NCBI RefSeq assembly: GCF_000821185.2
Contig: NZ_CP050857.1
Location: forward strand, 1-64,000
Reading direction: 5' to 3'
Origin: Serratia symbiotica
Lineage (GTDB): Bacteria > Pseudomonadota > Gammaproteobacteria > Enterobacterales > Enterobacteriaceae
Length of the DNA stretch: 64,000 nucleotides
Under the pieces are notes generated by a model. It had not been told where the DNA came from. It saw only the letters and a list, made by a program, of their open reading frames with translations, and ran no database searches. The position numbers were made by a program, and so were the translations under genes. This document shows positions 1,187 through 20,963 of the stretch, one piece after another; position 1 is the stretch's first letter; the number at the start of each line of letters is the position of its first letter.

Positions 1187-1494
1187 TCGGCGACCGGTTA
1201 AACCAGGCCGCGTCTCCCGGACGTTTAAGGATACGTCCCATCCATCAAGTCTGTTCCGCTGTCCGGAAAACGGGGGCACACATCGGTATAAGGCCAGAAT
1301 ACAGCCACCACACACATGATCCCGTCCGGCTAGGCTGATATTGGTCAACAATATTACAGCGCGTGCCAGAAAGCATACCTGCTAAATCGCCCTTGATCCA
1401 GCCCGATCCCCTATTATGGTGAAAAATACAGCGCATACGGGGTGAAATTAGCCAGGCAGGGTAGGGTGGGCAGCAGGGCAGGCAGACCGGGGCA
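1187..1494. other. Rep upstream control region, no gene
   Basis: No supported gene. The repA transcript must start in here on the minus strand, but I see only weak promoter-like hexamers and do not name one. Short open frames in this stretch lack ribosome-binding sites. Confidence 0.4.
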
Positions 1495-1520
1495 TATCAC
1501 CCGCAGGCGGGCGGGTGATA
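1495..1520. terminator. Perfect 10-bp hairpin downstream of nuc
   Basis: TATCACCCGC and GCGGGTGATA flank a six-base loop, 19 bases after the nuc stop. There is no T-run on the minus strand, so it is a hairpin-only terminator or mRNA 3' stabiliser candidate. Confidence 0.4.
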
Positions 1521-1538
1521 CCCAGCGGAAGTCACAGA

Positions 1539-2069
1539 CTAGTAGGAAGAAGTCCAGTCGGCTCCCTCATCCCAACGTGACTGCCAGTGCGCCAGATAGA
1601 TTTGGGCCAGCGCCGGCACATCACGCACCACCAGGACGTTCTCGGAATTGGCGCGGGCACGCCGTGTAAAGTTAAAGGAGCCGACCTGCAGATTCTGGCC
1701 ATCGGTGACAATCATCTTGTCATGCAGGAGGGGGTAACGGTCATTGGTTCGCAGCGGTATCCCGGCATTAACGACCAGGTTCATCGCCGCCTGGCTGGCT
1801 TTGCTGCGGTTGCCCTTTTCGTCGACCCCCACCCTGACGTCCACGCCGCGCCGGCGGGCAGCCATCAGGGCGCGTACCACGTCTGGCGATGTAAAGCTGT
1901 AGCCCATTAGCCGAATGCTCGTCTGGGCCTCCGCCAGTAAACGGATAACCCGTTGCTGCGCAGTTCCCTCCGGTGAAAATCCGACATCAAAGGACGGCGT
2001 GGCCCAGGTTGCGCCCGCAGGCAAGATCAGGGTCGCCATCAGCGCCCCGATAAATAGGTGTTTTCTCAT
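1539..2069 (-). CDS. nuc: Secreted phospholipase D-family nuclease (Nuc/EndA type)
   Basis: 176 residues. A signal peptide (MRKHLFIGALMATLIL...) is followed by one PLD domain with a single HKD motif: LLHDKMIVTDG then GSFNFT at about residues 118-138. One-motif proteins of this length are the periplasmic endonucleases known from IncN and IncL/M plasmids, which act as dimers on DNA. It lies between repA and trbC in the same orientation as the transfer genes. Its contribution to conjugation is not shown by the sequence. Confidence 0.88.
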   Translation of the reverse strand: MRKHLFIGALMATLILPAGATWATPSFDVGFSPEGTAQQRVIRLLAEAQTSIRLMGYSFTSPDVVRALMAARRRGVDVRVGVDEKGNRSKASQAAMNLVVNAGIPLRTNDRYPLLHDKMIVTDGQNLQVGSFNFTRRARANSENVLVVRDVPALAQIYLAHWQSRWDEGADWTSSY

Positions 2070-2129
2070 TCCTGTTTTCCTTGATGTTACGTGACCTTGT
2101 CACTCGTAATCTTTTATTCATGAGCAATA

Positions 2130-4313
2130 TCAGGCATCGGCAGCCCCTGTCAGCACCACATGATACTGCTCTGCCTGCTGGATTGCCTTGATGCTCGTGG
2201 TCAACCGCCGGGGTTCGCGCAAACGGACGCGGTAACCCCGACCCCGTTTCGGCAGGCTGGCCAGGACCATACGCCACAGTACGGCCGAACGCACCGCCGC
2301 AGACGGCGGACGCGACCAGCTGTATTCACATTCAAGCTCAAACTCACAGACCGCCGCCAGCGCCGGGTCGGTCAGCACCAGGCCGCCGGTGTCCTGCGAT
2401 CCCGGTTCATTGTCCAGGACACGCAGAATATGCTGCACCCGCTCGGCACGCACGTAGCCGCGGCGCTGCCTGAGCGGAGCCGCTGCCAGCAGGGCTGCCT
2501 CAGTTGGCGGGGCCACCTCCACGAAGCGGTTGATACGCACCGCCTCCGATGCAAACTTGTCCGCATCCTTGATATACAACGCGCTGCAACGCAGCAGGGT
2601 GCCGTTAAACAGGGTCACATTCTCCCCCTCCTGCAGCGCCTGCACTTCTTCCACCTCCACTTTTTTCTGCTCACGCAGGATCAGCCGGTTATCGTCACGC
2701 CAGTGGCTGCCCGTCAGGCCCGCCTGCTGCACCATGGCCTGCATCTCCGGCCGGTACTCCGTACCCGCCATCAGTTGCAGGATTTCCAGCGTGTCCTTCG
2801 GATCCCGGATCTTCCCCGTAATGCGGATGCCCATATTGGCGACAAGCGTCCAGATTTCGTCGCCCGCCGCTGATTTCAGGCGTTGTACCTCCTGACCAGC
2901 CAGCAGCAGGCAGTAGCCCAGTGAGCGGAGCTGCGTGGCCAGCTCGCCCAGCTTTTCGCTATAACCCGCCCCCACTTCATCAATGATCCACAGGAACGGA
3001 AACCGATCCATGAACTTGCGGATCTTCATGATATCCTGCGGCCGCCCCTCCAGTTTCTCACCCAGATCCTGACTCAGTATCATGGCCAACTGGGACTGAT
3101 AGAGACGCCCCAGCGTGGCCCCTTCATTGGCTGACATCTCCAGTGCCGGCACCAGTACGGTCAGGATGCGGTCGTTGTGCACCACATCGCGCAGGTCGAT
3201 ATCACCTGCATCACGGGCGAAGACATGGCCATAGGTGTCATTGAACAGGCTCAGCATGCGGGTAAACTGCTGCATCAGATAGCCATGCTGGCGGAGCGCT
3301 TCCAGATCCCATTCAGACGGGGTGGCGACCTTGTCCATGTCGAAGCCGGCCAGCGTACTGAGGTAGTTCTCCAGGACCCGACAGATATCTTCATGCCACT
3401 GCTCTTCAACCGCCTGCGTGTATAGCCCGGCCATCTTTCGCAGCGGCAGGTGTGACTGGATGGTACGCTGTGACATCACCGTTCCTTCGCGTCGACACTT
3501 GTAGACCAGGGCAAAAATCAGCGCCTGATTCATGGCACGCGCCTTTTCCTGCCAGCTGCCATCACCACTGCCGGTTTTAGGCAGCATCGCGTCCATCAGG
3601 TTGACGATGTAGGTTTCCTGCGCGATACCAAAGGCGTTGGTGGTGTTGGTCTGGGGGCGTCCCCTGACATCCTCCAGTAGCTCCTGCGCCCGCGAGCGCC
3701 CGCCCGTGATGAAGTTCATGGTACGCAGGTCATCCTCACGCCCAAAACGCCGGGCAAGTGACGCCACGGCCAGCGCCACATCGTTCTGCGCCTTGTGGTC
3801 AGAGAAAATCACGCCCTTGCCCCAGCACAGGGCGTTAAACACCCACCCCAGCAGGGTCTCGGTTTTACCGGCACCGGTGGTACCGAACATCAGGACGTGC
3901 CGGCACAGATCTTCCATCGACAACCAGAGCTCGCGACCGGCATCCTTCCCTCGCAGATGGCCTGCGTAGAGGATACCGGCGGCCCGATCAGTGTGAATAC
4001 GCATCCGCGTGATGGGCAAAAACCCCAGCATTTTCGTGGGAGCCTGCCGGGCGGTGGAGGGGTCGTCCCGGGTCATGTCGGTGGGCATACGCATCGGCAT
4101 CTGCCAGCGATCGTCCAGTACGGAAACCAGTGACCAGAACAGCAGCACCGGCAGGCTAAACAGCAGCGTCGCCGGGTAAACCATACCGCCGGCCACTACC
4201 GTGCACAGGCCCCACGCCAGCGTACCCGGTTTTGCCAGCAGGTCACCCAGCCAGGGGTTGCCGACACGCCGCCTGACGCGGTCGCGATCAAGCGCAGTGG
4301 GAATGTCTGTCAT
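2130..4313 (-). CDS. trbC: Type IV coupling protein TrbC (DotL/IcmO-like)
   Basis: 727 residues. The protein has two N-terminal membrane segments (about 32-75), then a VirD4/TraD-type ATPase. Walker A is GTTGAGKTE near residue 150 and a Walker B-like hydrophobic stretch ends in DEVGAGYSEK near 445. In R64 and IncL/M plasmids TrbC is the inner-membrane ATPase that brings the relaxase-DNA complex to the secretion channel. It lies 12 bases downstream of trbB, so it belongs to the trbABC unit. In R64 nikB and nikA follow; here nuc and repA follow instead, so the usual relaxase neighbour is absent. Confidence 0.92.
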   Translation of the reverse strand: MTDIPTALDRDRVRRRVGNPWLGDLLAKPGTLAWGLCTVVAGGMVYPATLLFSLPVLLFWSLVSVLDDRWQMPMRMPTDMTRDDPSTARQAPTKMLGFLPITRMRIHTDRAAGILYAGHLRGKDAGRELWLSMEDLCRHVLMFGTTGAGKTETLLGWVFNALCWGKGVIFSDHKAQNDVALAVASLARRFGREDDLRTMNFITGGRSRAQELLEDVRGRPQTNTTNAFGIAQETYIVNLMDAMLPKTGSGDGSWQEKARAMNQALIFALVYKCRREGTVMSQRTIQSHLPLRKMAGLYTQAVEEQWHEDICRVLENYLSTLAGFDMDKVATPSEWDLEALRQHGYLMQQFTRMLSLFNDTYGHVFARDAGDIDLRDVVHNDRILTVLVPALEMSANEGATLGRLYQSQLAMILSQDLGEKLEGRPQDIMKIRKFMDRFPFLWIIDEVGAGYSEKLGELATQLRSLGYCLLLAGQEVQRLKSAAGDEIWTLVANMGIRITGKIRDPKDTLEILQLMAGTEYRPEMQAMVQQAGLTGSHWRDDNRLILREQKKVEVEEVQALQEGENVTLFNGTLLRCSALYIKDADKFASEAVRINRFVEVAPPTEAALLAAAPLRQRRGYVRAERVQHILRVLDNEPGSQDTGGLVLTDPALAAVCEFELECEYSWSRPPSAAVRSAVLWRMVLASLPKRGRGYRVRLREPRRLTTSIKAIQQAEQYHVVLTGAADA

Positions 4314-4325
4314 ATTTTTTTCCTG

Positions 4326-5345
4326 TCAGGACGTGGGGGTAGCGGGTATTCCAGACGCGCCCGGCGGTGCCGGTGTCTCCAGAAATGCGTCGAGTGCAGA
4401 CGGCGAGCTCAGCACCGCCTGCGGAACGTAGCGGCCGTCATCGGACAAGATCCAGGGGGTGCCCGGCAGGCGGTAAGCGCGGAAGGCCACGTCGTTAACA
4501 CCGAGGGCCGCCGTGGCGGTTTCGCAATGTGCCGCGTCAGCCGTGTGTCCCGCCTCCTGTCCCGGCACGGCGATGCCGACGTCGGCCGCGAACAGTGACG
4601 TCCAAGCCCCCGCCCGCGACGCGGCCGGCAAGCACAACACCGGGGTCAACCGGGTCAGGGAGTCGGTCCCGCCAACGGACGTGACCGGGAAAATCACCAC
4701 ATTGACACGGCCGGCGGCGGTCTCAATATGGCGCTCCATCCGTTGGCAGTTGATGCACGCCGGGTCGGCAAACACATACAGCGTGCGCGCATGACCGGTG
4801 GACAAGGGCACGGTAAAAAGCCCGCGCGACGCCGCATGGCCGAGCCTGGCGGGCAGGTGGGCGCGCACTGACGCCGACAGCGTCCAGTTATCCGGGGCGG
4901 CCGGGTTCCCCCCGGCGGACACCGCTGACCGGAGCGGCTTTATCCCGGGGCGGTCGTTTATCCGGACACGCTCCCTTGCCTGTGAGGGCCGATCATCCAC
5001 CGGCGACAACACCGCCCACAATGACAGCGTCAGCACAAGGGCCATCCCCCCGGCAAGAAGGGCGGCCAGCCCGGCAATCAGGCGACGACGCCAGACACGG
5101 CTTTTTTCCACCGTGGCCAGTGCCACCGTAAGGCGATTCAGCAGCGTCACGGCATCGTCGCCACGGTACAGGGGCGTCAATGCGCCATGAGTCCGTTGCG
5201 CATGGAGTCCATCGCGATGTAACACCAGGCCCGGCAGGTCACGCAGGCGCAAGGTAAACAGGCAGATGCCGTGCTGGCGAGCCACAAGCAGGCCGCCGCA
5301 GATTTCAACGGTGAACGGATCGGTAATAGGGGGCGTTTTCATCAA
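4326..5345 (-). CDS. trbB: TrbB thioredoxin-like disulfide isomerase
   Basis: 339 residues. A membrane anchor sits near residues 85-110, followed by a periplasmic DsbC-like thioredoxin fold with the active-site CINC in FADPACINCQRM near residue 200. I-type plasmid TrbB proteins are thought to fold periplasmic parts of the transfer apparatus. It abuts trbA directly (stop at 4326, start at 5345 against trbA stop at 5346). Confidence 0.85.
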   Translation of the reverse strand: MMKTPPITDPFTVEICGGLLVARQHGICLFTLRLRDLPGLVLHRDGLHAQRTHGALTPLYRGDDAVTLLNRLTVALATVEKSRVWRRRLIAGLAALLAGGMALVLTLSLWAVLSPVDDRPSQARERVRINDRPGIKPLRSAVSAGGNPAAPDNWTLSASVRAHLPARLGHAASRGLFTVPLSTGHARTLYVFADPACINCQRMERHIETAAGRVNVVIFPVTSVGGTDSLTRLTPVLCLPAASRAGAWTSLFAADVGIAVPGQEAGHTADAAHCETATAALGVNDVAFRAYRLPGTPWILSDDGRYVPQAVLSSPSALDAFLETPAPPGASGIPATPTS

Positions 5346-6566
5346 TCACTCCGGGGCGGGCCTGCCGCCATTGAATGAAACAGTCGTGGTGTCCTGCGGC
5401 CGGTAAAGGGCGTCCAGGGAAAACGTGTCGTGTTCAGGCTGAGGTCGTGGCGGCCGCCTATCGCGGGCATGGATCAGACCCAGGGTCTCAAGCTCCATAC
5501 GCAGCCCCGCCACGGCCTGATCCGTCATCAGCGGCGGACGGGGCAGACCAAGCCGGCAGGCCTGCTGCTCCGCGCGGGCCTGGGCAACGATACCCGCCCC
5601 CTCAACGAAGACTTTTGCCGCGTCCGCCGTTTGCAGGCCGTACCACAGCGTCCGGTCGATCCCCTTGAGCCAGCGAAAACGGGCCGGGGGCAGACGCAGA
5701 TCACGCCCATAAAGCCCGGCCAGCGCCGAGCGCACCGTGCCGTGCGTGGCCAGCCAGTCGCTGACCCCTGCACAGGCCAGGACTCGCGCCACCTGTGCTT
5801 CTGACACTGACCAGTCGGGCTGGCTGCGGAACACCGGAGCCCGGAAGGGACGGCGTACCAGGCAGGAACGATTCAGGCCATCAAGCAGGGTCGAGGCCGC
5901 CGCGCGGTCATCGGCAAACACCTGCAGCCCGAAGACGGCGAGCAAGGCCCGCTCATGTGGCTGCCACTGGTCAGGCGGCGTCATCGCCGGCCCCGTCTGC
6001 GCATCAAAAATGGCACGGGCCGCCTCGCGATCCAGCAGACGCTGGCCAACCAGGCCGTGCTGCGCCGCAAAATCCTCCGGTGTCAGCGCCCAGGCGTTCT
6101 CAGGCGTGGTGTCGTTCATCAATCCATCACCCTTGTGGCCTGCCAGCACCGGGATCACCGAAGGGGCGAAGGTGACCATCACACGCGGCAGCGTGTGAAT
6201 GGTTAACCAGCGGCGACTATGAAAACCGAGCGCCGGATGGCGAGCGACTCCCCACCCGGCCAACATCAGCAGGGGGAAGCAGGGCACCAGCAGAATGTGG
6301 GCAGTGCCGTTCATGACAGCCAGCCACGTGCTGACGCTGACGGTCGTCGCCCCGTTGCCGGTCATGGCCAGCAGGTTGATGCGTTGAGCCGCGTAGTGGT
6401 GGATCTGCGGAAAGTCGGTGAACCGCCACAGCCAGTAGAGCAACCAGCAGCTCCAGTGCACCAGGTCGGCGAAGTAGAGCCAGCACAGCACGGCGGACAG
6501 GCACAGCGTGATCACTGCCACAGCCGGCTCATTATGACCGGCGGCACTGGGATAGGGCGTTTGCAT
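5346..6566 (-). CDS. trbA: TrbA (DotM/IcmP-like) coupling complex protein
   Basis: 406 residues with two to three N-terminal membrane segments (about 15-50 and 85-115) and a soluble C-terminal domain. Gene order excA-trbA-trbB-trbC matches R64 and IncL/M plasmids. The Legionella homologue DotM/IcmP partners the coupling protein DotL, so it probably forms a complex with TrbC here. A strong terminator lies just upstream, so trbABC probably has its own promoter after 6619. Confidence 0.88.
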   Translation of the reverse strand: MQTPYPSAAGHNEPAVAVITLCLSAVLCWLYFADLVHWSCWLLYWLWRFTDFPQIHHYAAQRINLLAMTGNGATTVSVSTWLAVMNGTAHILLVPCFPLLMLAGWGVARHPALGFHSRRWLTIHTLPRVMVTFAPSVIPVLAGHKGDGLMNDTTPENAWALTPEDFAAQHGLVGQRLLDREAARAIFDAQTGPAMTPPDQWQPHERALLAVFGLQVFADDRAAASTLLDGLNRSCLVRRPFRAPVFRSQPDWSVSEAQVARVLACAGVSDWLATHGTVRSALAGLYGRDLRLPPARFRWLKGIDRTLWYGLQTADAAKVFVEGAGIVAQARAEQQACRLGLPRPPLMTDQAVAGLRMELETLGLIHARDRRPPRPQPEHDTFSLDALYRPQDTTTVSFNGGRPAPE

Positions 6567-15100: not shown

Positions 15101-15241
15101 GTCGGGATTGTGAACGCGATCGTCGTCAGTCAAGCGGATAATTGTTTGCAGGTCACAGTAGTCAGGCAGATCACGGGAAACGGCAAAGCGCGTAACAGCG
15201 GTGATGACATCTTCAGTCCAGCGGATGAGGCGGTTTGGCAT
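12188..15241 (-). CDS. traU: TraU, DotO/IcmB-like transfer ATPase (VirB4 role)
   Basis: 1017 residues, the usual TraU length. The C-terminal half carries Walker A GDSGGGKS near residue 500 and a Walker B-like segment near 850 (YDELHNARHVPFIF). This is the large AAA+ ATPase of I-type secretion, equivalent to VirB4 and to Legionella DotO. It overlaps the end of traT by 29 bases, so translation is probably coupled. Confidence 0.93.
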   Translation of the reverse strand: MPNRLIRWTEDVITAVTRFAVSRDLPDYCDLQTIIRLTDDDRVHNPDLIAPYIMVTHNGDYLTVYEVVGSYRESDETLPEGQTDAWQGRLARMTEALTAHYRKTGHKISLVHECDPDGGRAEIQHLLAPQYRSLTRTGLDLAYLLDEQVEKLAPWVNRERTWLVCYTGRGVLAGHELRDENARLGELIKASPPAAFGQNPLLTDLAGLKIRHDAFIAQVERAFGDSGKGVLLRRLDAHEVGRVLRAQTDPLGTGNDWQPLLPDDPVMPRGVRQGKDVTALLAPWLNVQVMGAGVQQIRNNMLEINGVWHGTLAVSLGPQDPQSFRCLRKLLPRGVPWRIRLDLMPGGMRKLGLKHGVLDFTQWVPGLKPIWQSVSLLAARDRHDPVCVMSITVATWGDSPKTVTRNLTLVKQALDSWGVCGVTQTFGDPVRAWVATLTASSAASGPCLLYPPLSAALNLLPLTRPASAWNEDGNALFPTPDGKIMPVGLATPKQTKLTTILAGDSGGGKSVLLNRLTTIMATSANHHLPFVSVTDKGLSATGMVSLMRSALPLARQDEVLNIILRNEPAYCRNLFDIQLGLRAPLGYEEDFMTNLLTALCIDPATGDPPNSKDTGVILRRLVCEAFNAARNTPRRYEPGLVPEVDRAIEKTALWDRFPDYRENCSWYELCDVLQDVGETLAAQRAQFQAVPELADMPPLLGSADLTSIYGTIERDGSRELLVDYLARCLRDACRQYRMFAGRTRFMISPQARVINVDLQYVVGKETRVGHLQTGIMFLFAGHISGGDFVLPQFAGELFAGLNPRWHALHRARVEQLDQEVKTRVYDELHNARHVPFIFPMLETADREQRKHGVRTVLSSQYLRDFPEAVQRSANSVYMVAVDPDDEAVLRDRFQVPTVTLRRFMRMGSGAAADGSGVPFLGIFKIKGGSTLAHIMKHTVGPQELWALSTTPEDRALREMLEKDVGDETARRILGRFFPGGSAAKVIAHRRRTTGEISSDNAIRILADELVRQQGYDL

Positions 15242-15833
15242 ACAGGTCGCTCCGTGTGTAGGTCTGCCAGCAAGGCGTCTGCACCGCGTTCTCCGCCGTG
15301 CGGCCCTCTGGCAACAGCAGGGTCAGGTCGTCAAAAACATCAGGGGGAAGGATAAGCACGCAGCCTTCGAGGCGGTGCTGCATGGCCTTGCGGCGGGCGG
15401 GTGACAGTCGCTGCATCGCGCGGGCGAACTCTGACGCCCGTGCGGTGCCCCACATGTTCACCACTTCCCGCGCATGGCGGGACAACCAGTTCCACACGCG
15501 TCGACCGTCCCTGCGGGTGGCGCGGTCATCACTGCGCAGCGCAATCAGCGCCCGCCGCTGCAGATTTATCAGGTCAGCGGCGGGCGCATCCGGGAGCCAC
15601 GCGAGGTGCCCGTGCAGGGCCGTGGGACTGTCAAGATGACCGGTGAGCCAGCAGAGCGTGCACACGGGCAGGGCATGCGGCCCCTGCCACAGCCGCTGTG
15701 CATGGGTGGCGCAGCCACAGCAGGCCGGCCCGGCCGTCATCGGCACCGGGCGCGGCGGGTCGTCTTCGCCGCTGATATCCGGCACAAGTGGCAGCAGCCC
15801 GCCTGCCGGGGCGGGTGCATCAAAAACAGACAT
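15213..15833 (-). CDS. traT: TraT, DotN/IcmJ-like zinc-binding protein
   Basis: 206 residues. Cysteine pairs CCGC near residue 38 and CTLC near 58 suggest a bound metal, as in DotN/IcmJ, which joins the DotL-DotM coupling complex. Size (DotN is about 208 residues) and the place before traU agree. Not to be confused with F-plasmid TraT, an unrelated exclusion lipoprotein. Confidence 0.78.
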   Translation of the reverse strand: MSVFDAPAPAGGLLPLVPDISGEDDPPRPVPMTAGPACCGCATHAQRLWQGPHALPVCTLCWLTGHLDSPTALHGHLAWLPDAPAADLINLQRRALIALRSDDRATRRDGRRVWNWLSRHAREVVNMWGTARASEFARAMQRLSPARRKAMQHRLEGCVLILPPDVFDDLTLLLPEGRTAENAVQTPCWQTYTRSDLYAKPPHPLD

Positions 15834-15945: not shown

Positions 15946-16656
15946 TCAGAGGCCGTTTGCTGCGGTGTAAAAAAACGCCAAGGCCAGCCCGACTGCCGTC
16001 ACGAACAGCACCGCCAGTGTGATCGCCGCAAACAGAGGTGAAAATTTGTCCTGGCTCAGCGTTTCCGCTGCCCCTGCCAGCAGGCCATAAACAATCAGCG
16101 CCAGGACGCAGAACCGGGTGGGTGGCAGGTACAGAAGCAGCCCGAAAAATACGGGCGACATCAGCATCAGTATTATGCTGGCCAAACCCGCCCACTCACC
16201 GTACCTGTGTGACCGTGACACGCTGACGGGACGTGCCTGAAGCGCGGCCGCCTCCAGCCGTTTCAGTGCATCAATCAGACACTGAATCTCCGCCGCCGCT
16301 GAATCACCTCTGCCCCGCTCGCGAACGATGCGGAACTTCTCGTCACGGATGCAATGGATCAGCATCGATATATCTGCAGGATCCGGATAGCCTGAAGGAT
16401 GTGCGCTCAGACGCATTGCAGTAACCTGCCTCAGCACATTGTTTCGGGCTGTGATGTCTGCAAATTCATGGGCACTGGTCCACTTTATGACGTACCACAG
16501 GTACAGACTGATGTTTTTCTCACACGGCAGGGAGAATTGGTTAATCACAATTTTGCCCCTATAATCAAAGACTTTTACATGCGGGATTAAGTCGTGGAAA
16601 AACGCGATTTCTGATCCGTAGAGCTGATTAATCGACGGTGACGCCGGTCTGTGCAC
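15946..16656 (-). CDS. Membrane protein at the traS position
   Basis: 236 residues. The N-terminal half is soluble; the last 80 residues hold about four membrane segments (from ASIILMLMSPVFFGLL on). The ATG at 16656 overlaps the tail of an upstream broken frame. R64 has traS between traR and traT, but this is far longer and I see no recognisable relationship. The N-terminal half is richer in A+T than traT, and the protein adjoins the foreign cassette, so it could be cargo rather than backbone. Confidence 0.55.
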   Translation of the reverse strand: MHRPASPSINQLYGSEIAFFHDLIPHVKVFDYRGKIVINQFSLPCEKNISLYLWYVIKWTSAHEFADITARNNVLRQVTAMRLSAHPSGYPDPADISMLIHCIRDEKFRIVRERGRGDSAAAEIQCLIDALKRLEAAALQARPVSVSRSHRYGEWAGLASIILMLMSPVFFGLLLYLPPTRFCVLALIVYGLLAGAAETLSQDKFSPLFAAITLAVLFVTAVGLALAFFYTAANGL

Positions 16657-16735
16657 TCTGGTTCAGCACGGTCAGTATCTGCTGCAGGCGGGCAGCCGGA
16701 TCTCCGTCAAGAGAAAATGGGGGGTGTTGTTGCAC
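16628..16735 (-). pseudogene. C-terminal remnant upstream of the membrane gene
   Basis: A GC-rich frame ending LTVLNQSAQTGVTVD is open for only about 36 codons. It begins abruptly where the base composition switches to the A+T-rich cassette. It reads like the tail of a gene whose front was replaced by the cassette. Identity unknown; the short gap before traR on the other side shows a similar isolated GC-rich tail (ends AVQNGAPV near 19130). Confidence 0.35.
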
Positions 16736-16778
16736 CTTAATCAGTCAAATGCCCAACTTTTCGGGTGCAGGTCAGTAT

Positions 16779-17351
16779 TTAATCGTGCAGCGTGGGGATC
16801 ACCAGCATATGATAGTTGTTGCCGTTGAACTGAAATTCACCAACATCAGCAAATCCCGCACGCATATGGAAAGCATACGATCTCGGATTGACCTTGTTGA
16901 CAAATGTCACCACCAAGGGAAAACGCTTTCCAAACAATCGTCGTTGATACTCCAGCAATTTTTCACCAACTCCTTTGCTCCGGTATTCCTCGGCAATACA
17001 GATCGGACCATACTGATAGGATGTTTGCTTATTGAGCCGCTCCCCATCAAAAAGGTAATCCCCTAAAATCCCCTGCATATAATCAAACATTTTCCATGGC
17101 TTTAAAAAATCCCATGATGCGCCAATAAGCATACCGGCAATCACGCCGTTTGAGGCATCAACAGCAATCGTTACACCTTGCTCTGTGTGACTGAGCGCCT
17201 GTAGCTCAGCAATTGTCATATCGGTGGTAACAAACCCGTTGATTTTCGACTCATCAGTCAGGTTTTTCGCATGGTAACGCTCTAATAATGCTTTTACCTG
17301 TGGAATATCTTCATCCGTTGCACATCTGATCTTGATGTCTAACATTTTCAC
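16779..17351 (-). CDS. GNAT-family N-acetyltransferase
   Basis: 190 residues. Acetyl-CoA-binding motif A appears as AEEYRSKGVGEKLLEYQRR near residue 117, preceded by a GNAT beta strand (QYGPICIAEE) and followed by the usual NxxSxxFHxRAGF-type motif (VNPRSYAFHMRAGF). GNATs transfer acetyl groups to amines. It is the last gene of a three-gene A+T-rich cassette, three bases after the permease gene, so its substrate may be the oxygenase product; that link is inference. Confidence 0.85.
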   Translation of the reverse strand: MKMLDIKIRCATDEDIPQVKALLERYHAKNLTDESKINGFVTTDMTIAELQALSHTEQGVTIAVDASNGVIAGMLIGASWDFLKPWKMFDYMQGILGDYLFDGERLNKQTSYQYGPICIAEEYRSKGVGEKLLEYQRRLFGKRFPLVVTFVNKVNPRSYAFHMRAGFADVGEFQFNGNNYHMLVIPTLHD

Positions 17352-17354
17352 CCC

Positions 17355-18164
17355 TTAATGACCTGAAATGTATTTCACCAGTAACGTGACCATCATTGAT
17401 CCTACTGATAGATAGAGCACTTTCTTAATGATTTCGCCATTGGTCTTAATCGCGTGCAAGCTGCCAATGTGATTTCCTAGGAGGCTGGCCACTATCATGG
17501 GAATACCTATTATCCAGGCCATCTGACCTGCAATAGCAAACGCAACGAAAGCACCCATGTTTGAGGAAAAATTAAATATCTTACTCGTGGCAGAAGCTTC
17601 AAGCAGACAAAACCGGTTAACAACTGCAAGCACAACAATGAATAAACTCCCGGTGCCTGGCCCAAAAAAGCCATCATAAAAGCCCACAACAAAGCATACC
17701 GTAAAGATTGCAATCGGGTTGGTTGTAGGTGTCTGATAATTTTCCTTCAGACGACTTTTTACTGTAGCGGCCACAAGACCAATGGGCAGAAGGGCAACAA
17801 TCACAAGTGACAGTGCCTCTGAAGGTAAAAGCAGAATTACGCGAGCGCCAACAAATGCCCCTACTAATGCGGATAGTATTCCTGCAGGAACCACCTTCCA
17901 GATCACAGAGCGGTTTTTGACAAAGTTTTTTATGGCCGCAATAGTGCCAATGGTACTCACAAGTTTTTCCTGGCCCAAAGCCAACTGAGGAGGCAAACCA
18001 GTCAGGATAAATGCAGGGATGAGGATTAACCCTGCACCACCTGCTACAGCATCGATATAACCCGCTATAAATGACGCTACCACCAGTAGAAATACACCAA
18101 TGAGGAAAAACTGAGCGATCAAGCTTCCCCCAACGAAAATTGAGTGATCAATAAAATTAAACAT
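17355..18164 (-). CDS. TauE/SafE (TSUP) family permease
   Basis: 269 residues with about eight membrane segments. Both family signature halves are present: GYIDAVAGGAGLILIP near residue 35 and GFYDGFFGPGTGSLF near 160. TSUP proteins move small anions or sulfonates, commonly outward. It starts seven bases after the oxygenase stop and runs three bases from the GNAT gene, forming a tight operon. Transport substrate is not visible from sequence; export of the oxygenase product is a reasonable guess. Confidence 0.87.
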   Translation of the reverse strand: MFNFIDHSIFVGGSLIAQFFLIGVFLLVVASFIAGYIDAVAGGAGLILIPAFILTGLPPQLALGQEKLVSTIGTIAAIKNFVKNRSVIWKVVPAGILSALVGAFVGARVILLLPSEALSLVIVALLPIGLVAATVKSRLKENYQTPTTNPIAIFTVCFVVGFYDGFFGPGTGSLFIVVLAVVNRFCLLEASATSKIFNFSSNMGAFVAFAIAGQMAWIIGIPMIVASLLGNHIGSLHAIKTNGEIIKKVLYLSVGSMMVTLLVKYISGH

Positions 18165-18171
18165 GGCTTGC

Positions 18172-19089
18172 CTATACCGTTCTTAAATTATGTTCGCAAC
18201 TTTCAGGAGTAAGCAGCTGCGTGCGGAGGGGTTTATTAAATATGCCGAAAACACGCAGTAACCAGCGATCTGTACCGTCATAGCGGGGGGTAAAAGCATT
18301 GCGTGTGTGTAACGTTCGCTGATTGAGAAACGTCACAGCAGTACCAGGCACAAGCGGCACATTGTGCCATAACTCATTATTGAGTGTTGTATGACGCAAC
18401 TTTTCTAGCGCGTGCTCTGCCGCTTTTGTCATGCCACTGACATTATGCCAGTCAAAGCGAGAATAATATAACCCCTTATGCTTGACAAGCACCGGTAAGC
18501 TTTTAATTACAATGGTGTTTTCGAAACTTTCTGGCCGTCTAACCTGAAATTCAGGGCGTTTTAAATCGGTAATTGTTTCAACATCAAGACGTTTCAGCAC
18601 TTCATCAATTAACAAAATGCTTGTGTTTACACCTGGCTCATCACGCAAACAAAGCAAAGTCAATGTGTCAGGACAACACCCTAAACGAGGCTTGATAGCT
18701 TCGCCTGTAATGCGCAAATCAGGATTATCTACGTGAGGATAGAAATCATGTGCCCCACCCTGAGAGCTAATAGTATCGGCTTTCGTTAGCAATGGGCAAA
18801 CATGCCGGATTAGATGGCCATTATTCTCGCCCTCATACACCACTGGCCATAGCCCTACATCAAAATGAGCGCGCAGTAGAGCGCCATGCAGATCCCCATT
18901 ATGCTTCTCTACATAGTTGGCAAAGTCTGGCATCACTGGAGTATCTGTAAGCTGATATCCTTCAAAATCATGCAGCTTCCAGACTATATAACCATTCTGT
19001 AGTAAAGACTGCTTAAAATCGTGCGGCATTGCTATTTGTGCTTCACCCTGCCGCGCCTTTGCAATAATGCTTTGATTTACCACTTTCAA
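18172..19089 (-). CDS. Fe(II)/2-oxoglutarate oxygenase, clavaminate synthase-like
   Basis: 305 residues of the TauD/clavaminate synthase-like superfamily. The iron triad is H119-x-D121 in HDFYPHVDNPDL plus a distal His in NQRTLHTRNAF (about 267). A 2-oxoglutarate-binding Arg lies in DGTDRWLLRVFG about 20 residues later. That last segment is typical of enzymes that hydroxylate free amino acids (VioC, OrfP and lysine hydroxylase type). The listed start is TTG; there is no ATG until residue 21, and a GTG is present at residue 3, so the start is unsure. It heads the cassette with the permease and GNAT genes. Confidence 0.83.
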   Translation of the reverse strand: MKVVNQSIIAKARQGEAQIAMPHDFKQSLLQNGYIVWKLHDFEGYQLTDTPVMPDFANYVEKHNGDLHGALLRAHFDVGLWPVVYEGENNGHLIRHVCPLLTKADTISSQGGAHDFYPHVDNPDLRITGEAIKPRLGCCPDTLTLLCLRDEPGVNTSILLIDEVLKRLDVETITDLKRPEFQVRRPESFENTIVIKSLPVLVKHKGLYYSRFDWHNVSGMTKAAEHALEKLRHTTLNNELWHNVPLVPGTAVTFLNQRTLHTRNAFTPRYDGTDRWLLRVFGIFNKPLRTQLLTPESCEHNLRTV

Positions 19090-19191
19090 ATCCCATTGAA
19101 ATATGATGGTTTATTAAACATGGAGGTTTAAACCGGAGCGCCATTCTGAACCGCCATATCGAGTTGTGCCTGGATCAGGACATTAACGGAT

Positions 19192-19672: not shown

Positions 19673-20212
19673 TTAGCGCGTCCCAAGTGTTTTTTGCAAC
19701 GCGTCCAGCAAAGAGGGACTGCAGCACATCATCACACCGATAATGAACTTCACGTTACCGGTGGTGACATCATTACCAGCCGACAACCCGGTGTGCCCCT
19801 CCTTGCGTGAGCGCCGCCACAGCAGGACACCCTGCAGACAGAAGTAAACCCCTGCCATGTTCAGCAGGGTCAGCAGGGCGTTAGCCGCCACCGCCCCTTG
19901 GCCAAAGGTGCTCACTGACACATAACTGATGGCATCAAAAGAGACCTGCCACCCCATCTGACGCCCCGCCGCGCTGATCAGTTGCTCAAGCCCGGCCAGT
20001 CCGGCGCAGAGCAGTATCCAGGCAACCATGCTGCCGCCACTGGCCGCCTGTCCCGGTGCCTTGCGACCAAGCCAGGACTGACGCGCCAGGAAGCCTGCGG
20101 CACCGAGTACCGCGACCAGCGTGGCCAGCGTAAAGGCAAAGTGAATGGCCGCCCCATGCAGGTGGGTGGCCAGATTCGACAGCATCGTAATGCCGTCTGT
20201 CATCGATCCCAT
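19673..20212 (-). CDS. traQ: TraQ inner-membrane transfer protein
   Basis: 179 residues from the ATG at 20212, chosen because AAGGAGG sits five bases upstream and traP stops just before. About four membrane segments (about 18-45, 65-85, 105-130 and 145-170). R64 TraQ is of similar size and position. Probably an integral part of the inner-membrane platform. Confidence 0.76.
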   Translation of the reverse strand: MGSMTDGITMLSNLATHLHGAAIHFAFTLATLVAVLGAAGFLARQSWLGRKAPGQAASGGSMVAWILLCAGLAGLEQLISAAGRQMGWQVSFDAISYVSVSTFGQGAVAANALLTLLNMAGVYFCLQGVLLWRRSRKEGHTGLSAGNDVTTGNVKFIIGVMMCCSPSLLDALQKTLGTR

Positions 20213-20222
20213 CTTAACCTCC

Positions 20223-20963
20223 TTAGCGCAGCACACCGCCGCTGGTCAGCACCTGACGCTCAGCCGCGTTAACATCCTTCACTCTTACCGGCCCCAGCGG
20301 GTCGCCGGCCTGTACCGCCCAGGTTCTCCCCTGCCAGTTAACCCAGGCCATCCCGCCCTGTACGCTCTCCAGTCGCATGCCGGCCAGCGGTGAAGCCTGC
20401 GCCGGGTGCCGGGGACGCTTTTCACCCGTGGGGACGGCCACGGTTCGGGCTTCCAGCACCGTCAGCCGGTTGAGTAACGCGTTATGCCCTGACGCCCAGT
20501 CCGCCATCTGCTTTTGCAGCGTGGCCAACGCCGCATTCTGTGCCCGGACGGTGTCTGACAGGCGGCTGATGGCCTCTCGGTTGGCGGTAGCGAAGTCGTG
20601 CCCTGCGTGGATCATCCTGACCACCTCCTCCGGTACGCGGCGGTCAGTGGACTCATCCGCTCCTGTTGCCGGAAGGGCGTTATCGGCAACCGAGGGGGGC
20701 GATGGAGGCGTGCGTGACACAGGCTGAAGACCTGGCGCGCCCTGCGCCACCTCACCAAACGCCAGCCGGTTGATGTCGGGCACAGATACCGGCCAGAACA
20801 GGTACCAGGCAGAGCCTGCCAGTACCAGGACGATGCCGACCAGCCAGGGCAGTGACAACCCCAACAACCGTGGACGCGTCAGCAGACCCGACCGGGGTAG
20901 CGGCGAATGCGGGGGCACGGGAGTCGGGCGATGATCGGCGGTGGGTGACTCAAATTCATTCAC
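20223..20963 (-). CDS. traP: TraP conjugal transfer protein
   Basis: 246 residues from a GTG at 20963 that overlaps the traO stop. One membrane segment (about 38-60) and a periplasmic part with a helical, coiled-coil-like stretch (about 110-165) before a small beta-rich tail. In R64 TraP follows TraO and is an inner-membrane protein. The longer open frame to 21068 lies inside traO and is not needed. Confidence 0.78.
   Translation of the reverse strand: MNEFESPTADHRPTPVPPHSPLPRSGLLTRPRLLGLSLPWLVGIVLVLAGSAWYLFWPVSVPDINRLAFGEVAQGAPGLQPVSRTPPSPPSVADNALPATGADESTDRRVPEEVVRMIHAGHDFATANREAISRLSDTVRAQNAALATLQKQMADWASGHNALLNRLTVLEARTVAVPTGEKRPRHPAQASPLAGMRLESVQGGMAWVNWQGRTWAVQAGDPLGPVRVKDVNAAERQVLTSGGVLR

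Follow-up and report, generated by a model that had tools for sequence, protein, structure and literature searches.

Why does a compact set of A+T-rich genes stand between the conjugation genes traR and traT of a Serratia symbiotica plasmid, and what do these genes make? The locus lies in the first 64,000 nucleotides of contig NZ_CP050857.1 (this whole stretch is called the window below), where an initial annotation had seen an oxygenase, a permease and an acetyltransferase as a minimal module that makes, exports and protects against a modified amino acid. At the level of sequence, the comparisons presented here establish the operon, its protein families, its insertion at this site and its conservation, in which the oxygenase and the permease are a co-inherited pair found in many bacteria. 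That a mobile three-gene small-molecule operon is the whole explanation of the locus has, in our judgement, an even chance. The three genes are:

18172..19089, minus strand: Fe(II)/2-oxoglutarate oxygenase (OXY), AsnO/clavaminate synthase-like, with HxD at residues 119-121, distal H261, R275 and the side-chain-reading D213
17355..18164, minus strand: TSUP (TauE/SafE) permease, 269 amino acids, the near-constant partner of OXY
16779..17351, minus strand: GNAT acetyltransferase, 190 amino acids, the operon's third gene in those enterobacterial loci that we examined

A conserved oxygenase-permease pair

A scan with the OXY alignment alone, using one genome per species, returned 41 loci from 17 named genera and one more, with 23 of the loci in Pseudomonas. 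A TSUP of the window's type was found downstream on the same strand in 40 of them, at 70 bases or less in 33 and up to about 1.1 kb away in the remaining seven; at the sole locus lacking it, in Erwinia, OXY itself is a remnant. A number of the loci are visibly broken (L038, L040 and L046, for example). The OXY and TSUP trees, which are quick trees that gave long-branch warnings, recover the same three groups, with 91% support in the OXY tree for the group that unites Pseudomonas and Deefgea. Over 22 loci (17 Pseudomonas loci were dropped), the OXY and TSUP distances are correlated with r = 0.937, a value reached in none of 5000 permutations.

The three genes in the window have the close packing, strand and low G+C content first described for them. 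Their G+C content is 44-45%, and 500-base segments give 42-47% over the cassette versus about 59-69% further out in the flanks, clear of the borders. Since the gaps are only 7 bases between OXY and TSUP and 3 bases between TSUP and GNAT, a single operon is likely; a promoter and terminator scan gave counts no different from those in shuffled sequence. Each family identity given initially is borne out by a Pfam score over the cut-off: TauD (PF02668, 3.8e-7) for OXY, TauE/SafE (PF01925, 4.1e-39, 135 bits versus 32.6) for TSUP and Acetyltransf_1 (PF00583, 1.4e-5, 25.7 bits versus 20.7) for GNAT. OXY has 305 amino acids when read from a TTG, while its homologues point to a GTG two codons later and a protein of 303.

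The oxygenase

In an alignment of the window's OXY with 26 relatives (27 rows), H119, D121, H261 and R275 are invariant. From knowledge of the family, we take the first three to be the HxD/E...H facial triad and R275 to be the arginine that binds 2-oxoglutarate. The HxD motif noted earlier holds across the alignment, as do W276, L277, R279 and F281 of the WLLRVFG motif.

Structure comparison places the double-stranded beta-helix fold of OXY nearest AsnO, KDO1 and VioC, and it shows the side-chain-reading aspartate (D213) of free-amino-acid oxygenases, in support of the initial annotation. OXY has the fold, the HxD/E...H iron site and the 2-oxoglutarate arginine in common with AsnO, VioC, OrfP, KDO1 and CmnC, all of which act on free L-amino acids, and it further has in common with AsnO, for which they were compared, a conserved glutamate and the side-chain-reading aspartate. 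Identity to these five enzymes is 17-25% in structural alignments, and the sequence match to AsnO (2.5e-14) covers residues 140-284 only. To our knowledge, they are enzymes of antibiotic pathways or stand-alone enzymes, none of them regularly accompanied by both a TSUP and a beta-hydroxy-acid dehydrogenase. The best NCBIfam match, among matches that include no AsnO model, is GntD, the L-enduracididine beta-hydroxylase of guanitoxin synthesis (1.8e-16), although at 60 bits versus a cut-off of 345 OXY is not a member; it also falls under the curated cut-offs for ClavSyn (39/450 bits) and VioC (37/418.6 bits). We predict, with good confidence, that OXY is a free-amino-acid beta-hydroxylase. The list of substrates given at the outset (arginine, lysine, asparagine and histidine) omits tryptophan, which the gene neighbourhoods favour.

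The third gene

The three genes do occur together elsewhere, but their fixed oxygenase-permease-GNAT form does not hold: the wider unit is OXY-TSUP with a third enzyme, usually a beta-hydroxy-acid dehydrogenase. We counted dehydrogenases up to 3.2 kb upstream or 5 kb downstream in the 41 loci, calling YdfG-type any protein with more than 40% identity to a Pseudomonas short-chain dehydrogenase/reductase (SDR). Exactly one of two unrelated dehydrogenases was present in 38 loci, a YdfG-type SDR in 29 and a protein of the beta-hydroxy-acid dehydrogenase family in nine; no locus had both, and the three with neither belong to Neisseria dentiae, Rosenbergiella and Erwinia. These family names rest on representatives, and three YdfG-type proteins scored 325-364 bits, below the curated cut-off of 411. 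That the two dehydrogenases exclude each other is our strongest indication of a beta-hydroxy amino acid as the product of OXY.

A precedent for this chemistry comes from the phenylserine operon of Pseudomonas syringae NK-15 where, in the available part of the report, one enzyme of each dehydrogenase family oxidises the beta-hydroxyl of phenylserine and the resulting keto acid loses CO2 to give 2-aminoacetophenone (PMC2963168). Each of the two thus turns a beta-hydroxy aromatic amino acid into an aminoketone and CO2, as we propose here. The NK-15 operon differs, as far as that text goes, in having no oxygenase or TSUP, and in carrying a LysR regulator, a major facilitator superfamily transporter, an ilvD-like gene and both dehydrogenases together (PMC2963168).

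Among the loci examined, GNAT is part of the operon only in Enterobacterales. Neither kind of dehydrogenase was found in eight enterobacterial loci or in the whole window, the sole match being an unrelated SDR (29%) on the Enterobacter plasmid L003. The best YdfG-like SDR match in the host genome (G000:C1:2391653-2392378) reaches 164 bits and is interrupted by a stop, consistent with genome reduction.

The GNAT model has a mean confidence (pLDDT) of 94.4, and its structure matches are to the GNAT fold. Foldseek brings up, among others, ArsN, BAR and phosphinothricin acetyltransferases, enzymes whose substrates are toxic amino acids, while VIA ranks protein N-terminal acetyltransferases first; because these matches differ, the fold cannot separate amino-acid from N-terminal acetyltransferases. 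The GNAT scores far below the cut-off of the NCBIfam ArsN1 model (21.9/170 bits). It has 79% identity to a protein in a Bartonella record and 80% to one of Serratia microhaemolytica, and relatives occur in 15 of 392 genomes of the host's family (six at 59% identity or more, five at 44-48% and four at 29-30%), mostly without OXY.

In L093 and L045 the GNAT is intact, OXY is fragmentary and TSUP is a remnant or gone, which fits a retained protection gene. Klebsiella plasmid L139, where GNAT is cut and the rest intact, tells against its being strictly needed. We also considered an orphan-immunity pattern, in which OXY always decays first and GNAT stays, over nine enterobacterial loci (the window, L001, L002, L138, L139, L038 with L005 counted with it, L093, L045 and L003). 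OXY is damaged in four of the nine, GNAT in two (once with OXY and TSUP intact) and TSUP is lost or a remnant in two, so that we did not retain this pattern, which is suggestive only. Elsewhere, GNAT relatives (45-48%) lie beside MocR-type regulators in L097 (3662-6718, where the regulator looks split) and L098 (4222-6712), L097 also having an EamA transporter; a parallel regulator-exporter-acetyltransferase unit is possible there.

Insertion between traR and traT

The surroundings of the cassette in the window are as follows:

15213..15833, minus strand: traT, one flank of the insert
15946..16656, minus strand: open reading frame of 236 amino acids without family assignment, inside the insert
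16628..16735, minus strand: G+C-rich coding-like tail, 35 residues, stop at 16628-16630
19128..19191, minus strand: G+C-rich coding-like tail between the traR stop and OXY, 21 residues
19192..19686, minus strand: DUF6750 gene in the traR position, the other flank
19673..20236: traQ (NF033883, 236 bits, cut-off 80)

That the cassette was inserted here, as had been suggested, is confirmed by its absence from the site in all six related loci compared. In plasmid loci of E. amylovora, Cronobacter, Pantoea, Rahnella and Serratia, traR is directly followed by traT with no annotated gene between them; the two lie 89-106 bases apart (end of traR to start of traT) in the four loci where both are annotated versus 3359 in the window, and in the Cronobacter plasmid traT is unannotated but aligns just behind the DUF6750 gene. 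An 81-kb contig from a congener of the host has TraR and TraT matches 154 bases apart. Serratia plasmids have a TraT about 55% identical to the window's, and in plasmids of Pantoea, Erwinia, Rahnella and Cronobacter the identity rises to 71-74%. Searching for flanking repeats as a mark of transposition at the insert gave none that was convincing.

The G+C-rich coding tails previously described on either side are present, and the 35-residue one had no match in the plasmid collection at E<=1. The 236-residue reading frame, overlooked by the initial annotation, shares the insert with the cassette and has hydrophobic stretches; it matched no Pfam or NCBIfam family, and none of the other loci showed it as a component of the module.

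The cassette on other plasmids and in the host family

A tblastn search with OXY of 72,556 plasmid records matched 85, of which 43 cover at least 80% of the query. By genus they are Klebsiella (40), Streptomyces (28), Vibrio (7), Pantoea (3), Streptantibioticus (2), Escherichia (1) and others. OXY, TSUP and GNAT are all intact on Klebsiella plasmids L001, L002 and L138, and on L139 the first two are intact and the GNAT match stops at residue 59. Identities to the window are 56-57% for OXY, 74-75% for TSUP and 61-62% for GNAT. Their types are diverse (L138 MPF_I, L001 IncFIA, L002 IncFIB/MOBH and L139 IncFIA-IncFIB), so that the association first drawn with I-type plasmids fails, only one of the four being MPF_I. 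On a Vibrio coralliilyticus plasmid, the annotation gives an aminotransferase-family regulator, OXY, an oxidoreductase and TSUP in succession. Within the host's own taxonomic family, OXY-type matches are scarce (4 of 392 genomes), and two of the four are distant oxygenases with no TSUP within their 3.5-kb loci.

Several neighbourhoods deserve separate mention. On L001, HlyD, a peptidase-domain ABC exporter, CPBP and a small glycine-rich reading frame (1328-5790) resemble a class II microcin cluster. We rejected a microcin link, as other plasmid genes intervene over the roughly 2.7 kb between the HlyD/ABC exporter/CPBP cluster and OXY, and L002 is without it. A link to viruses was also dropped, none of 39 pattern matches in viral contigs being upheld by tblastn. 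On L003 (8157-16933), TSUP is the sole survivor between OXY and GNAT remnants and adjoins an Exc2 lipoprotein and type VI secretion genes. On a Pantoea stewartii plasmid (L141, 3612-5600), the gene directly upstream of a distant oxygenase (32%) is annotated as 'amino acid--tRNA ligase-related'. The annotation gives no TSUP in the vicinity, and this may be a further small module for an amino acid.

Links with tryptophan synthase

In five of the 41 loci (Haemophilus, Actinobacillus, Endobugula, Deefgea and Parendozoicomonas), the OXY-TSUP pair is followed by trpB and trpA, with an SDR gene between the two in Deefgea. These loci are spread across all three OXY groups, on both sides of the window's branch, and the Endobugula, Deefgea and Parendozoicomonas genomes have additional trpA and trpB elsewhere. 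Gene order and tree position suggested a single ancestral trpBA, but on a TrpB tree of 19 rows, which has one long branch, the grouping of the three second copies into a single clade is rejected (approximately unbiased test, p 0.0156), so that trpBA was seemingly recruited more than once.

Two further observations concern these genes. In L127, L129 and L130, which are Pasteurellaceae without OXY, a YdfG-type gene lies directly upstream of trpB-trpA, an unexplained linkage; the available part of a paper on Haemophilus tryptophan synthesis mentions neither ydfG nor an oxygenase there (PMC13395689). The extra TrpBs of Vibrio hepatarius, Neisseria dentiae and Parendozoicomonas (its third copy; L116, L117 and L118) form a fully supported separate clade with unrelated surroundings.

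Proposed pathway and alternative explanations

Of the module first proposed, co-occurrence, insertion and the oxygenase fold have stood, while the constancy of GNAT and the link with I-type plasmids have not, and the substrate list lacked tryptophan. We propose that OXY would use O2, Fe(II) and 2-oxoglutarate to hydroxylate a free L-amino acid at its beta carbon, and L-tryptophan is the most likely candidate for this substrate, if a tentative one. TSUP would export either the resulting beta-hydroxy amino acid or what is made from it, and we consider export slightly better than an even bet. Where a dehydrogenase is present, the beta-hydroxyl would be oxidised to give a 2-amino-3-keto acid and, with loss of CO2, an aminoketone. 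The window's GNAT would instead acetylate the amino group, disposing of the molecule or capping it inside the cell, a protective role that we advance with reserve. The window's operon would thus likely yield a beta-hydroxy amino acid that has left the cell, or else the N-acetylated molecule. In its full version, a mobile pathway to free beta-hydroxytryptophan would hydroxylate untethered L-tryptophan and secrete the product through TSUP as an antimetabolite or signal, with extra trpBA feeding it in some genera and an interchangeable dehydrogenase or acetyltransferase protecting the producer; we give it a probability of about 0.28.

Several results weigh against tryptophan. Tryptophan synthase genes are absent from 36 of the 41 loci; in Haemophilus and Actinobacillus OXY is broken and trpBA is the sole copy; OXY occurs in only 2 of 140 Pasteurellaceae genomes, both times with stops; a YdfG-type gene precedes trpB in three of nine genomes that have trpB but no OXY; and D213 suggests only a side chain with a hydrogen-bond donor. 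Together with the use of asparagine, lysine and arginine by the nearest solved relatives, the D213 and trpBA results speak for the same chemistry on another substrate (asparagine, histidine, arginine, lysine or other), with trpBA having joined for another reason, for example to make the cell resistant to its own inhibitor of tryptophan synthesis. We regard this as possible if short of probable, but second trpBA copies in three genera of different OXY clades, apparently gained separately, are hard to explain unless tryptophan is the substrate or the target. A catabolic or salvage role, in which OXY and the dehydrogenase would degrade an unusual amino acid imported by TSUP under MocR control, agrees with the MocR-type regulators of 30 of the 41 loci (two representatives come closest to the EhuR and PdxR models, in each case below the cut-off) and with NK-15, where two phenylserine dehydrogenases share an operon and, in the available part of the source, the D-type is induced by phenylserine (PMC2963168). 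This role is improbable, since a second tryptophan synthase belongs with biosynthesis, the eight enterobacterial loci and the window lack a dehydrogenase (but for the 29% SDR match), and the three-gene form sits on unrelated plasmids.

Carriage on plasmids, the amino-acid acetyltransferases among the Foldseek matches and the wider occurrence of GNAT relatives than of OXY in the family genomes (15/392 versus 4/392) would suit a resistance cassette, with OXY and GNAT modifying, and TSUP expelling, an amino-acid-like antibiotic from other producers. It would leave trpBA and the dehydrogenases unexplained, and with the VIA ranking and the low ArsN1 score we hold it to be quite improbable. TrpB acts on beta-hydroxy amino acids, and could conceivably work downstream of OXY, a 3-hydroxy amino acid replacing serine to yield a beta-substituted tryptophan. 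However, the single cluster TrpB scanned (L018) scores as an ordinary TrpB (579 bits versus a cut-off of 392), the dehydrogenase would compete and no TrpB lies near the window's cassette, so that this idea is very hard to sustain.

Meaning of the operon

Each of the protein families is known, while their combination and spread appear to be new: in the open-licence PMC literature, we found no description of the OXY-TSUP operon, and a search for beta-hydroxytryptophan with 2-oxoglutarate oxygenases gave no account of it. Beta-hydroxytryptophan, the product proposed for OXY, is made in echinomycin synthesis by Qui15, which, according to the available part of the report, is inactive on free L-tryptophan (PMC3578932). 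Unlike OXY, Qui15 is a cytochrome P450 whose substrate is tryptophan tethered to a nonribosomal peptide synthetase, again as that text has it (PMC3578932). If free tryptophan is indeed hydroxylated, the operon would be a new and very small two- or three-gene route to an indole metabolite, ranging over Pseudomonas, Vibrio, Neisseria, Rickettsiales-related symbionts and enterobacteria, including Klebsiella plasmids. Even with another amino acid, it would unite many genes now called 'TauD/TfdA family dioxygenase' and 'TSUP family transporter' in one testable pathway, and TSUP permeases would gain a candidate class of substrates.
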